From Deltaproteobacteria bacterium RBG_13_61_14 (GTDB taxonomy: Bacteria > RBG-13-61-14), in assembly GCA_001797815.1 (NCBI GenBank), contig MGQK01000127.1, positions 1,981 to 8,233 of the forward strand: a stretch of DNA of 6,253 bases, written 5' to 3'. The notes under the pieces were generated by a model. The model searched no databases. It was not told where the DNA came from and saw only the letters and a program-made list of their open reading frames with translations. Shown in pieces: positions 124 through 6,253 of the stretch. Made by a program: the position numbers and the translations under genes. Within the stretch, counting starts at the first letter, position 1. Every line of letters begins with the position of its first letter.

Positions 124-225
124 GATACGTATATCGAATGCAGTATGTCGTATATCAGGATGGGACGATCGGAAGGGATTTAGGTTCTTCCCGATATACG
201 AAATACGGCATACGAAATACTTATC
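124..225. repeat. Large imperfect palindrome (33-bp arms) filling the pdxA-uvrA gap
   Basis: The left arm 124-156 and right arm 193-225 are reverse complements at 28 of 33 positions, separated by a 36-nt loop (157-192). The innermost 9 bp are perfect: TCGTATATC at 148-156 against GATATACGA at 193-201. Each arm is built from two related units of about 14 nt of the type GTATNTCGNAT, so the element is a tandem repeat inside an inverted repeat. It is visibly more A/T-rich than the flanking genes. The pdxA stop codon TAA (221-223) lies inside the right arm, and the left arm ends 4 nt before the uvrA ATG. As RNA on the minus strand it would form a long hairpin between the two cistrons. It resembles REP/BIME- or MITE-like intergenic elements in architecture; which family, and whether it is mobile, cannot be told from one copy. 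Confidence 0.75.
196..220. repeat. Perfect 11-bp direct repeat inside the palindrome arm
   Basis: ATACGAAATAC occurs at 196-206 and again at 210-220, separated by GGC, giving a period of 14 bp. A degenerate version of the same two-unit structure is present in inverse orientation in the left arm (about 129-156). This shows that the arms arose from, or are maintained as, short tandem units. Confidence 0.8.
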
Positions 226-2285: not shown

Positions 2286-3218
2286 TTAGAGCAAGGGGTA
2301 ATTGATCCGGATTTTCGCGCGGAGCATTAGCTCCTGGATCCATTTCCGATAAAGCCGCTCGCGCTCCTGGTCGCGCAGTTGCTTGCGGATCATCGGCTCC
2401 ACCTCGGCCAAGGCCGGGGTCCGGGCCTCCCGCCGTTCCAGCACCTGGAGCACGTGAAACCCGTAGTCGGTCCGGACCGGGTCGGAGAGCTTGCCGGTCG
2501 GCAGGGCAAAAAGCACCTGGTCGAGCGGCCGCAGAATCTGTCCCGGGCTGAGCCAATTAAGGTCGCCGCCCTTTTCCGCCTCCGGCCCCTGCGACTGGGT
2601 CCGGGCCAGGGCGGAGAAGTCCTCGCCGCCCAATACTTTCCTCCGGAACGCCTGGGCCTCTTCCAAAGAGACCAAGACCGCCTGGCGGGCGTGGACCTGG
2701 GCCGGTTGCAAAAACGCTTCGGCGTGGGCCTGGTAATCGTCGGCCACCTGGCCGGCGGAAATTTCGATCCGGTCGTCCAGGGCCTGGTCGGTCACTTTCT
2801 GGATCAGCAGTTGCCGGCGCAGCGATTCTTTCCACTCCTCCAGGTCAATGTATTCATCAATCAGCAGTTGGGCGAAGTCCTGGTCCGAGTAATCTTTCCG
2901 GATCTCCTGAAAGGCTTTTTCGAACTCGGCCTCGCTCACCAAAAGGCCCAGGCGCTTGGCCTCCTGCACCACCAGGCACTCTTCGATCTCCCCTCGGAGG
3001 TAATAGAGCTTGACTTCCAGCGGGGGCTCTTCTCCGGCCCGGGTCTGGGTCCAGCTCCGCTGGAAGCGGAGGTTGAAATCATTGAGGTCAATCGCCTCGC
3101 CGTTGACCACGGCCACCGGCACCTGGGGCCGGCTGGGAAGCGCCGGCTCCGGCCGGCAGGCGGAAACCAGCACCCAGATCAAGACCGTGGCGCCGGGCCG
3201 CCAACCTCGATTTCCCAT
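2286..3218 (-). CDS. Lipoprotein PrsA/SurA-type foldase with PpiC-like parvulin domain
   Basis: The 310-aa product is the second of three consecutive chaperone genes. The signal has a basic N-region, a hydrophobic core and the lipobox VSAC, with lipidated C21, so it is probably membrane-anchored and periplasm-facing. A SurA-type N-terminal domain covers about 33-165, starting with PVAVVNGEAIDLNDF. The parvulin domain covers about 173-263: VHARQAVLV (175-183), a GGDLNWLSPGQILRPLDQVLF segment and YGFHVLQVLERR (252-263). It is the most canonical parvulin domain of the three, keeping the second His (H255). The first-strand His of the usual VHARHIL motif is replaced by Q179. A basic, helical C-terminal tail (about 275-302) follows. 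The ATG at 3216-3218 comes 3 nt after the preceding stop (TGA GGC ATG), with GAG/GAGG purines close to it, so translation is probably coupled. Activity as an isomerase is uncertain; a holdase role is the safer inference. Confidence 0.9.
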   Translation of the reverse strand: MGNRGWRPGATVLIWVLVSACRPEPALPSRPQVPVAVVNGEAIDLNDFNLRFQRSWTQTRAGEEPPLEVKLYYLRGEIEECLVVQEAKRLGLLVSEAEFEKAFQEIRKDYSDQDFAQLLIDEYIDLEEWKESLRRQLLIQKVTDQALDDRIEISAGQVADDYQAHAEAFLQPAQVHARQAVLVSLEEAQAFRRKVLGGEDFSALARTQSQGPEAEKGGDLNWLSPGQILRPLDQVLFALPTGKLSDPVRTDYGFHVLQVLERREARTPALAEVEPMIRKQLRDQERERLYRKWIQELMLRAKIRINYPLL

Positions 3219-3221
3219 GCC

Positions 3222-4184
3222 TCACTCGGCGGGCAGGGCGGAGGTATCCCCGGCCTGGGCGCTGGCGCCGGCTGCCGGCTCCGGTTCTTCCGGGGCGGCG
3301 GCGCGGTCGCCCAGGCTCAAAAAATCTTCGAGGTTGGCGGTGTTGGGTTGAATGTCTTTTTGGCGGCGCGTGCGCAGATCGGTCACGTAACTGCGATAGA
3401 CTTCCTCTTTCTTCTCGTTCAGCAAATACTCGGCCAACTCGCGGGTATAGCCCTCCGGGTTGAGGTTGCCCGAGGTTTCCTGCACCTGGCTGATGATATA
3501 GCCACTCGCTAACCGGAGCGGTCGGGTGAACTCTCCCGGCTTCTTCAGGGAAAAGGTCGCCTCCTCCGCCTCGAAGCCCACCTCTTGTCCCAGCCAGTCC
3601 CGGTTCATGTAACCCCAGTCCTGGTCATGCAGGAGCAGGGGCCCGGCCAGCTTTTTCCTCGCCACCTCTTCCCACTTGGCCCCCTGGCTCAGCTCGCTAT
3701 ACAGTTTTTCCGCCGCGGCCCGGGCCCGGGCCTGGACCGCTTCCGAAGGCGTTTCCGGCAGCTCGATGATCAGCGAGCGCACCTTGATGAACCGGTCCTG
3801 GAACATCCGATACAGGTCCGCGGGCATAATCGAGCGGTTGATCAGTTCGTCCACCAGGATCTGGCGCCGGGCCCCGTCCAACTTCAGGCGCACCCGGGGT
3901 TCCCGGTCCAGGTTCTGGCGCAGGGCTTCCTGGTAAAGCAGCTCCACCGTCACCAGGTTGTCCACCAACTGCCGCCGGCCCGCCCGGTCCAGGTACTTGA
4001 CCTGTTCCTCCTGGGGCAGGCCCAAAAACGCGTGGTCCACCATTTCCCGGGTGATGGTGGTATCAGCGACCTTGAGCAACGGAGTCCCGCTCGGCTCTTC
4101 CTTCGAGCATCCGCCTCCCAAAAGCCAGAGCAAAAGCCCCGCGGCCAGCGCCGCCGCCGTGGCCCGCACGATCACAGGCCTCAT
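3222..4184 (-). CDS. Divergent SurA/PrsA-like lipoprotein chaperone
   Basis: The 320-aa product is the first of the three chaperone paralogues in transcription order. The N-terminus has Arg residues, a long Ala/Leu core and ends LLGGGC-SKEE. Its Cys26 context fits a lipoprotein, although Gly at -3 is atypical for a lipobox. A SurA-type N-terminal region (about 36-130; LLKVADTTITREMVD) precedes a weak parvulin-like domain (about 131-237). That domain contains WGYMNRDWLG (190-199), ATFSLKKPGEFTRP (209-222) and SGYIISQVQE (227-236). Both parvulin histidines are lost: VRSLII stands where VRARHIL is usual, and GYI replaces GYH. A C-terminal tail of about 28 residues (292-320), rich in Ala, Pro and Glu, looks disordered. 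The start is the ATG at 4182-4184, which overlaps the upstream stop as ATGA and has a good Shine-Dalgarno. An upstream extension to 4316 only overlaps the zinc-finger gene. It may be a chaperone for lipoproteins or outer-membrane proteins; the exact client is unknown. Confidence 0.85.
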   Translation of the reverse strand: MRPVIVRATAAALAAGLLLWLLGGGCSKEEPSGTPLLKVADTTITREMVDHAFLGLPQEEQVKYLDRAGRRQLVDNLVTVELLYQEALRQNLDREPRVRLKLDGARRQILVDELINRSIMPADLYRMFQDRFIKVRSLIIELPETPSEAVQARARAAAEKLYSELSQGAKWEEVARKKLAGPLLLHDQDWGYMNRDWLGQEVGFEAEEATFSLKKPGEFTRPLRLASGYIISQVQETSGNLNPEGYTRELAEYLLNEKKEEVYRSYVTDLRTRRQKDIQPNTANLEDFLSLGDRAAAPEEPEPAAGASAQAGDTSALPAE

Positions 4185-4438
4185 GACCCTTCTCCCGAGC
4201 CACTGCTCTCCGGCTTGGCCTCGGACCCGGCCGCTCGACCCAGGAACACGGTCCGATAGTGCTCCTCGCAATAGCCCTTGGCAAAGCGAGGCTGGCGGCA
4301 ACCCTCTTCCCCGCAAATCTTGTACCGGGCACTGCCATACTCACCCTGCCGCCACTTGCGGTAATGCTTGCGGCAGTAGCCCTTGCCTTTGACCGGCTGT
4401 TTGCAGTTCTCGATCTTGCAGGTTTCTTTCTTTTTCAC
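4181..4438 (-). CDS. Small protein with two Cys3His zinc-finger-like repeats, operon leader
   Basis: The 85-aa product (89 aa if the GTG at 4450 is used) carries two copies of C-x4-C-x9-YC-x2-HY: C7/C12/C22/H25 and C42/C47/C57/H60. The spacing is identical and the period is exactly 35 residues. Each copy contains KGYC-xx-HYR, and the linker is basic (YRKWRQGEYGSARYK). Four metal-type ligands per repeat strongly suggest two bound zinc ions. Similar C-x4-C-x9-C-x2-H units occur in small hypothetical proteins and phage or HNH-associated proteins, where nucleic-acid binding is assumed but rarely shown. The N-terminus is Lys-rich and the C-terminal 20 residues are Gly/Ser/Glu-rich and probably disordered. 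I prefer the GTG at 4436-4438 because a GGGGG Shine-Dalgarno sits 5 nt upstream and the promoter at 4471-4499 leaves a leader of about 25 nt; the alternative GTG at 4450 has no such site. Its stop overlaps the next ATG. Function is unknown; a regulatory or nucleic-acid-binding role is inference. Confidence 0.85.
   Translation of the reverse strand: MKKKETCKIENCKQPVKGKGYCRKHYRKWRQGEYGSARYKICGEEGCRQPRFAKGYCEEHYRTVFLGRAAGSEAKPESSGSGEGS
4192..4196 (-). promoter_or_regulatory. Ribosome binding site of the first chaperone gene
   Basis: GGGAG on the minus strand lies 7 nt before the ATG at 4184, with AAGGG immediately after it. It sits inside the 3' end of the zinc-finger-like gene and fixes 4184 as the start. 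It allows independent initiation in addition to ATGA coupling. Confidence 0.7.
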
Positions 4439-4443
4439 GCTAT

Positions 4444-4448
4444 CCCCC
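4444..4448 (-). promoter_or_regulatory. Ribosome binding site of the zinc-finger-like gene
   Basis: GGGGG on the minus strand can pair with the CCUCC anti-Shine-Dalgarno core using one G-U pair. It lies 5 nt before the GTG at 4438 and overlaps the alternative GTG at 4450, so it decides between the two possible starts. Confidence 0.55.
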
Positions 4449-4470
4449 ACTCGTTTCGAATCAAACTTTT

Positions 4471-4639: not shown

Positions 4640-6253
4640 ATGAAAGATTGGCTGATCATCGCCTGGGCGGTCGCGCTCAGCGCCGGCGCGGCCGGAGCCC
4701 AGGAAATCCCCCGGCCCGAGCACCCGCGGCCGGACCGCTTCCGCCCGGCCTGGCAGAATTTGAACGGCGTCTGGGAATTTCAAGCGGATCCTCAAGGTCT
4801 GGGCGAGCGCCGGAAATGGCACCAGCAGTTGGACTTTCCCGAGCGGATTCGAGTTCCCTACCCGATTGAATCCGAGCTTTCCGGCCTGGCCCGCGCGAAC
4901 CCGCCGGAGCTCAACTGGTACCGGCTCCGCTTTCAACCGGCGCCGACCATGCTGGCCGCTCCCCGCCAGCTCCTCCATTTCGGCGCGGCCGACTACCGGG
5001 CCACGGTCTGGCTCAACGGCAAAAAGCTGGGCGAGCACGTGGGCGGTTATTCGCCCTTCAGCTTCGAGGTCACCGGCCTCTTGAAGCCGGGCGACAACCT
5101 CCTGGCCGTGCGGGTGTTTGATTCCCGGTCCCGCTCCCAGGTCCGGGGCAAGCAGACCTGGAAGAAAAATCCTTACGGGATCCTCTACACCGCGGTCACC
5201 GGGATCTGGCAAACGGTTTGGCTGGAGGGCGTGGGCCGATCCTATCTGGAAAATTTCCAGGTGGACTTTGATCCCCAAAACCACCAGGTCCGGATCCGGG
5301 GCCAGGTGAAGGGAGCGGACCAAAATCTTTTGCTCCAGGCCGAAGTGAAAGCGGAAGAGAATGCTTCCGCCGAGGTGCATGGCCCCGCGGCGGTGCTGCC
5401 GCCGGGGTTGGCGGAAATCGCCTGGACCGAACCCGCCCCCAGGCTCTGGTCGCCGGATTCGCCTCATCTTTACCAGCTCGCGCTGGTGCTCCAGAACAGC
5501 GAGGGCGCGGTCCTCGACCGGGTGGAAAGCTATTTTGGACTGCGCGCCATCGAAGTCCGGGACGGCAAGATTTACCTCAACGGCCGGGAGCTTTACCAGA
5601 AGTTACTGCTCGACCAGGGGTATTTCCCCGGCGGCTGGTATGCCGCGGCCAGTGATGAAGAGCTCCGCCGCGATGTCGAATTGTATAAGGCCATGGGCTT
5701 CAACGGCCTGCGCAAGCACCAGAAGGTGGAGGACCCGCGTTTTCTTTATTGGTGCGACCGGCTCGGGCTTTTGGTCTGGGAGGAGATGCCTTCTCTGAAC
5801 CATTGGCTGATCCGCTGGAACCGCCGGGAGGCCAAGGCGCGCTTTGACCGCGAGTGGGAGGACGTGATCCGGCGGGATTATAACCACCCGAGCATTGTGG
5901 TGTGGACGCTTTATAACGAGAACTGGGGCCTCTTGGAGGCGGTTTACCGGCCGAGCACCATGCCCTGGGCGCGGGCGATCGTGCAACACACCCGCGCCAT
6001 CGGCGGCAACCGTCTGGTCGTGGACAATTCGGGCGGGTGGCACTTTGATACCGACATTTTTGACTTCCATCAATACCTGCCCACCGCCGAAAAGACCCGG
6101 GAGCTTTATCAGGTCTATACCGCCCTTCAGCCGGGGGAAAAGTGGCCGTTCCGCAAAAGCCTCGGTCTTTACCGCCGCGGACTTTTCAGTTTCCCGCCGC
6201 TGTGGTCCGGGGAGCGCTACCAGGGCCGGCCCCTCCTGCTCAGCGAATACGGC
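4640..6253 (+). CDS. Secreted glycoside hydrolase family 2 enzyme, 3' end beyond window
   Basis: The frame is open for 538 codons from the ATG at 4640, the first start after an in-frame TGA at 4634-4636. Residues 1-20 are a Sec signal peptide (hydrophobic core, AGA before Q21). The N-terminal sugar-binding jelly-roll domain spans about 25-200, with QNLNGVWEF (39-47), WLNGKKLGEHVGGYSPF (124-140) and a GIWQTVWLE end (188-196). An Ig-like domain covers about 200-302. The TIM-barrel domain begins near 303 with IYLNGREL, then LLDQGYFPGG (323-332), MGFNGLRKHQKVEDPR (352-367) and NHPSIVVWTLYNENW, where E427 in the NE motif is the predicted acid/base. The window ends at LLLSEYG, where E536 is the predicted nucleophile. 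It is a retaining exo-glycosidase of the beta-galactosidase/beta-glucuronidase superfamily, probably periplasmic or secreted. The LDQGY and RKHQKVEDPR signatures place it away from LacZ and UidA, so the substrate is not predicted. There is no Shine-Dalgarno. It is transcribed away from the chaperone operon and shows no functional link to it. Confidence 0.93.
   Translation, partial: MKDWLIIAWAVALSAGAAGAQEIPRPEHPRPDRFRPAWQNLNGVWEFQADPQGLGERRKWHQQLDFPERIRVPYPIESELSGLARANPPELNWYRLRFQPAPTMLAAPRQLLHFGAADYRATVWLNGKKLGEHVGGYSPFSFEVTGLLKPGDNLLAVRVFDSRSRSQVRGKQTWKKNPYGILYTAVTGIWQTVWLEGVGRSYLENFQVDFDPQNHQVRIRGQVKGADQNLLLQAEVKAEENASAEVHGPAAVLPPGLAEIAWTEPAPRLWSPDSPHLYQLALVLQNSEGAVLDRVESYFGLRAIEVRDGKIYLNGRELYQKLLLDQGYFPGGWYAAASDEELRRDVELYKAMGFNGLRKHQKVEDPRFLYWCDRLGLLVWEEMPSLNHWLIRWNRREAKARFDREWEDVIRRDYNHPSIVVWTLYNENWGLLEAVYRPSTMPWARAIVQHTRAIGGNRLVVDNSGGWHFDTDIFDFHQYLPTAEKTRELYQVYTALQPGEKWPFRKSLGLYRRGLFSFPPLWSGERYQGRPLLLSEYG

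Follow-up and report, generated by a model that had tools for sequence, protein, structure and literature searches.

Head-to-head heptamer arrays fill the pdxA-uvrA gap and recur between codirectional genes in a deltaproteobacterial genome

An inverted repeat of heptamer arrays between pdxA and uvrA

The genes pdxA and uvrA are separated by a 101-nt gap (120-220) in the 6,253-nt stretch of DNA analyzed here (the window), and this gap is taken up by an inverted repeat. What kind of element this is, and how it came to be at this junction, are the questions raised by the locus. The pdxA gene is located on the minus strand at 221-1270 (Pfam PF04166, E 3e-99). The start of uvrA, also on the minus strand (1-119), was read from the window sequence, which likewise provides its direction because the gene is masked beyond 119. 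Its ATG (119-117) lies 4 nt outside the nearest arm of the repeat.

A mechanical inverted-repeat search places the arms at 124-160 and 189-225 (37 nt, 84% complementary), consistent with the original prediction that 28 of 33 positions pair. The 11-bp direct repeats that it described at 196-206 and 210-220 are exact. Two further statements also hold on inspection: the pdxA stop codon (TAA, 221-223) falls within the outermost part of the right arm, and no AGGAGG-like sequence precedes the uvrA ATG on direct reading, leaving this gene without a Shine-Dalgarno sequence. However, the proposed 14-nt repeat unit must be revised. The repeat is in fact built of the heptamer GTATNTC, two of which make 14 nt, and copies elsewhere in the genome unambiguously exhibit a 7-nt period.

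The left array, defined by the heptamer scan and the inverted repeat, carries the units GTATATC, GAATGCA, GTATGTC, and GTATATC (129-156; C127:2109-2136; plus strand). The right array, defined by the heptamer scan and genome matches, carries GTATTTC, GTATGCC, GTATTTC, and GTATATC (193-220; C127:2173-2200; minus strand). The GTAT strand of each runs inward toward a 36-nt loop (157-192) that, by genome search and loop comparison, is single-copy and unlike the loops of the nine other pairs described below. Arms and loop together (124-225) are predicted to form one long hairpin, both as DNA (z = -3.84) and as RNA from the transcribed strand (z = -5.45), with 0 of 200 shuffles folding as well in either case. 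At the foot of the predicted RNA stem, the end of pdxA pairs with the uvrA start region. A known RNA family was rejected because an Rfam search of the element gave no match, and an intrinsic terminator was rejected because none is predicted at this site.

The same junction in other genomes

Genomes from the same phylum available for comparison number only two (G001 and G002), and both belong to another family of the same order. In each of these order-mates, the gap is absent, as was expected if the element is an addition: the two genes overlap there, by about 8-14 nt. Most other bacteria in which these genes are adjacent have a gap of 21 nt or less. Because the genes overlap in the order-mates, the 101-nt gap in the window looks like an insertion, as judged at the order level and against another family. 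Separately, two deltaproteobacterial MAGs (L105 and L141) have their own ACTGTGA-like heptamers within the pdxA-uvrA gap, so this junction has acquired arrays of this type repeatedly.

A dispersed GTATNTC family

The host genome is a 4.7-Mb draft from a sparsely sampled phylum, and our genome-wide counts come from pattern searches and from a 398-kb sample chosen irrespective of arrays. The arms of the palindrome match many other sites in this genome, and the loop matches none. With one mismatch allowed, the pattern (GTATNNC)2GTAT (i.e., GTATNNCGTATNNCGTAT) yielded 134 genome matches versus 2 for the reversed control. The arms are therefore not single-copy, and ten loci have the same head-to-head layout, as had been foreseen for a repeat family. 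Exactly four units are present in 38 of the 54 arrays in the fetched loci (range 3-7, mode 4). All but one of these are intergenic according to a simple codon-usage gene call, and the exception adjoins masked sequence. The heptamer core G,T,A,T,C is kept while positions 5-6 are free to vary between loci, although this conservation is partly an artifact since the core itself was the search query. When solo, a GTATNTC array consists only of direct repeats and has neither an internal palindrome nor an inverted partner.

Beyond this genome, the GTAT family gave 0 matches in the two order-mates and 1-5 matches each in 7 of 385 other genomes searched, and a literature search for the GTAT sequence retrieved nothing relevant. 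Thirteen viral-contig stretches from IMG/VR (L352-L364) contain an exact GTATNTC triple array.

The ten head-to-head pairs are all intergenic, always have GTAT inward, and enclose loops of a few to 55 nt; no tail-to-tail pairs were found at the short spacing searched. The genes on either side of each of the ten are codirectional, and the distance to the stop codon upstream, like that to the start codon downstream, is usually 0-25 nt. The pairs have no loops in common, and it therefore does not look as if entire pairs had been copied recently. Nor is the similarity between the two arms of a pair significantly greater than that between arms taken from different pairs (permutation p = 0.12), which leaves a recent inverted duplication of the arms unsupported.

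Many solo arrays belong to a composite repeat roughly 390 bp long, in which tandem GGGGTGGTTGGCGTGCAGAAT-like units lie beside the heptamer array (L183, L241-L252). Among 14 copies, retrieved by their downstream flank only, four have GTAGGTM in place of GTATNTC at all four units, indicating that the units of one array change together. The GTAGGTM family is present elsewhere in the genome as well. Such concerted change is not predicted by simple copy-paste, and slippage or conversion fits it better than simple transposition. Conservation across the composite repeat is 0.85 at core positions and 0.88 at variable positions. The presence of GTAGGTM in four copies, together with a loss of register in one or more copies, accounts for these nearly equal values, which thus do not demonstrate selection on the core.

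Other heptamers share the architecture

Seven is the intergenic period in the 398-kb sample, where 26 of 33 arrays with this period are intergenic and intergenic DNA makes up 15%; arrays with periods of 6, 9, and 12 lie mainly in coding DNA. Nine or more distinct heptamers (AGGCTTT, GGATTTT, TGGTTCC, CAGTGAA, GTGTCAA, GGGTGAA, CACGGTT, GTAGGTC, and GTATNTC) form arrays of about four units in this sample, with array lengths of 25-44 nt. Five same-family head-to-head pairs of GGATTTT, AGGCTTT, or TGGTTCC also occur there (L264:741-825, L264:2613-2722, L273:3864-3950, L277:6696-6799, and L277:15810-15972), all between codirectional genes, and several fill operonic gaps. Combined with the ten GTAT pairs, 15 of 15 are codirectional, which has a chance probability of ~0.004 given the 69% codirectional background in gaps of 80-250 nt. 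In this sample, the arrays thus make up a class and not one sequence.

Small samples gave array densities per 10 kb of intergenic DNA of 4.4 in the host, 2.9 and 2.7 in the order-mates, 3.6 in deltaproteobacterial loci, and 0.7 in other phyla, and 100 kb of E. coli K-12 has no such arrays. None of about 80 arrays examined exceeds seven units. Inverted arrays of the heptamer GCAGTAT with the same layout were also noted in different deltaproteobacterial genomes (L078:1033-1126, L078:1922-2015, and L069:2918-2982).

Comparison with known repeat systems

The closest known system is the set of paired hepta- and octanucleotide sites of Geobacter metallireducens, comprising putative global-regulator sites of classes 1-3 and 4x heptanucleotide elements (PMC2700814). 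Those sites have 3-5 tandem units of 7-8 nt and tens of copies, and classes 1-3 are mostly opposite-strand pairs with variable spacing. The arrays described here share this layout, including the opposite-strand pairs, variable spacing, and many copies. However, the unit sequences differ, at least nine heptamers coexist in the present genome, and pairs fill operonic gaps. The function of the G. metallireducens sites is a prediction only in that account.

Arrays of the heptamer TAACTGA in Beggiatoaceae, Cyanobacteria, and Bacteroidetes (PMC4679880) are likewise short, intergenic, and abundant per genome, usually with few copies of the unit. They differ in using one heptamer, in being nearly all direct (with a single indirect case), and in lying mostly just upstream of start codons, whereas inverted pairs are common here. 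The GGGAATC repeats of Xanthomonas and Nostoc are also intergenic heptamer arrays found mostly beside aligned genes, but they form G-quadruplexes and vary in length, and head-to-head hairpins do not appear in the sections of that paper that treat them (PMC4692102). The arrays reported here, being tandem 7-nt units in intergenic DNA, have the form of heptanucleotide simple-sequence repeats. Among long prokaryotic repeats, those with heptanucleotide units are over-represented, and slippage has been proposed as the cause (PMC4692102, PMC4679880).

Elements of the REP/REPIN (RAYT) type are short intergenic inverted dimers found mainly between unidirectional or convergent genes (PMC3733652, PMC6006769), and the ten head-to-head pairs are inverted dimers in intergenic DNA as well. 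REP units, however, are internally palindromic and have a GTAG foot. GTAT arrays lack an internal palindrome even when solo, begin with GTAT, and flank none of the 19 Y1 transposase genes in the genome. The sister GTAGGTM array is no REP foot, and neither a GTAG nor a GGAG foot is present. We therefore rejected a GTAG-type REP/REPIN, and the REP-like label of the original prediction is weakened accordingly. Its MITE-like label fares no better. The pairs have terminal inverted repeats, but the ten loops are unrelated and hence provide no common internal sequence, and no autonomous parent was found among the 19 Y1 genes, so this does not look like a classical MITE. What survives is the more general proposal of an inserted dispersed repeat, given the many intergenic copies, the recurring layout, and the missing gap in the order-mates.

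Y1 transposases with 7-nt periodicity in their terminal repeats

Most full-length Y1 elements in the host genome have an inverted repeat of 20-35 bp at each boundary, typically starting with GGGGTCAG. They match the published TIRYT type, which has GGGGWSAS terminal inverted repeats (TIRs), and TIRYT-like genes with TIRs of this kind are thus present in the host (PMC3733652, PMC6006769). About 11 Y1 genes in loci L221-L234 have GGGGTCAG-type TIRs with a 7-nt repeat in their inner part, and copies of some of these TIRs stand alone nearby (e.g., L230, L236). When all ends bearing the GGGGTCAG motif were picked automatically, inner TIR identity at a lag of 7 was 0.55 for left ends and 0.51 for right ends, versus 0.19-0.36 at other lags, and 0 of 5000 shuffles reproduced the left-end signal.

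The GGGGTCAG motif of these resident TIRs is missing from the GTAT arrays, and TIR heptamers are no closer to array heptamers than permuted ones (566/2000), by which a direct sequence match between the two was rejected. Transposon ends built of GTAT arrays were rejected too, as none of the 19 Y1 genes carries such an array and the fetched loci showed no gene enclosed by head-to-head arrays. The 7-nt periodicity of the TIRs is nevertheless the best clue to mechanism, and it suggests, as a parallel only, how arrays might spread.

Possible origins and functions

We consider it most likely, with middling confidence, that the element at this locus is a dispersed intergenic miniature element, consisting of two arrays of about four GTATNTC units placed head to head around a loop, that inserted between pdxA and uvrA in this lineage. 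This reading builds on the observed multiplicity, fixed unit size, near-fixed unit count, fixed polarity, and intergenic placement of the arrays, and on the absence of the element from the junction in the order-mates. The arrays would serve as ends resembling terminal inverted repeats, and they may have spread by a DNA-level process akin to REPIN or TIR-dimer mobilization. Perhaps the elements survive at sites where the damage is small, just past a stop codon within operons. The hairpin would then be co-transcribed between pdxA and uvrA, and changes in mRNA stability or in translational coupling might follow as a by-product. Counted against a miniature element are the lack of any GTAT-flanked gene among the 19 examined (Y1 type only), the unshared loops, the insignificant arm similarity, the lack of a demonstrable target-site duplication, the missing GGGGTCAG, the heptamer permutation result, and the presence of GTAGGTM in 4 of 14 copies.

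A wider proposal, which we entertain tentatively and regard as unlikely, is that a class defined by its architecture, with head-to-head arms of about four 7-nt units each, occurs in numerous uncultured bacteria. It would perhaps be mobilized by Y1 (HUH) transposases whose TIRs have a 7-nt period, with the heptamer diversifying in concert in each family.

Also unlikely is an origin as heptanucleotide simple-sequence repeats generated by polymerase slippage, with inverted partners arising by template switching and no dedicated machinery. The over-representation of heptanucleotides, for which slippage has already been proposed, speaks for it, as do the concerted change of units in one array and the existence of many different heptamers. 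However, slippage should produce a long tail of array lengths, which is not seen among the roughly 80 arrays. It also sits poorly with the fixed polarity of pairs and with the presence of one heptamer family at dozens of unlinked loci, and template switching predicts that paired arms should be alike, which they are not to a significant degree.

RHH proteins, such as the plasmid omega repressor, bind heptad arrays, which favors a reading of the arrays as sites for a global DNA-binding protein. One subunit or dimer would occupy each heptamer, and inverted pairs would allow looping, as proposed for the identically arranged sites of G. metallireducens (PMC2700814). The retained core with variable positions 5-6 and the array length near four units agree with this, but the core conservation is partly a search artifact, the pairs lie between stop and start codons in operons rather than at promoters, and a genome with so many unrelated heptamers would demand many regulators. 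We judge this a doubtful explanation.

Least probable is that the hairpin works locally, as an RNA device between the two cistrons that acts in processing, in stability, or in the translational coupling of pdxA and uvrA: the strong RNA fold with its foot joining the two genes, the missing Shine-Dalgarno sequence, and the codirectional setting of all ten family pairs speak for it, but the same element is found at many unrelated loci, the order-mates' junction leaves no gap for a hairpin, and neither an Rfam match nor an intrinsic terminator was found.

The dispersed element is new in sequence, and its kind is known but poorly understood. An excess of heptanucleotide repeats in bacteria is known, yet a 2015 paper remarks that no detailed literature on them exists (PMC4692102). 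Here, one genome has many heptamer families of common size, layout, and type of location, together with transposon ends of the same 7-nt period. This combination makes it a testable question whether such arrays are the ends of mobile elements, sites for proteins, or products of slippage.

Other genes in the window

Upstream of pdxA are tandem genes for SurA/PPIC-type peptidyl-prolyl isomerases (2286-4316), two of which are supported by Pfam PF00639. The minus strand at 4181-4450 encodes a small protein rich in Cys and His that contains two repeats of the form CxxxxC...GYCxxHYR and has no Pfam match. Divergent from the operon, the start of a gene for a secreted-looking glycoside hydrolase of family 2 occupies 4640-6253 on the plus strand.
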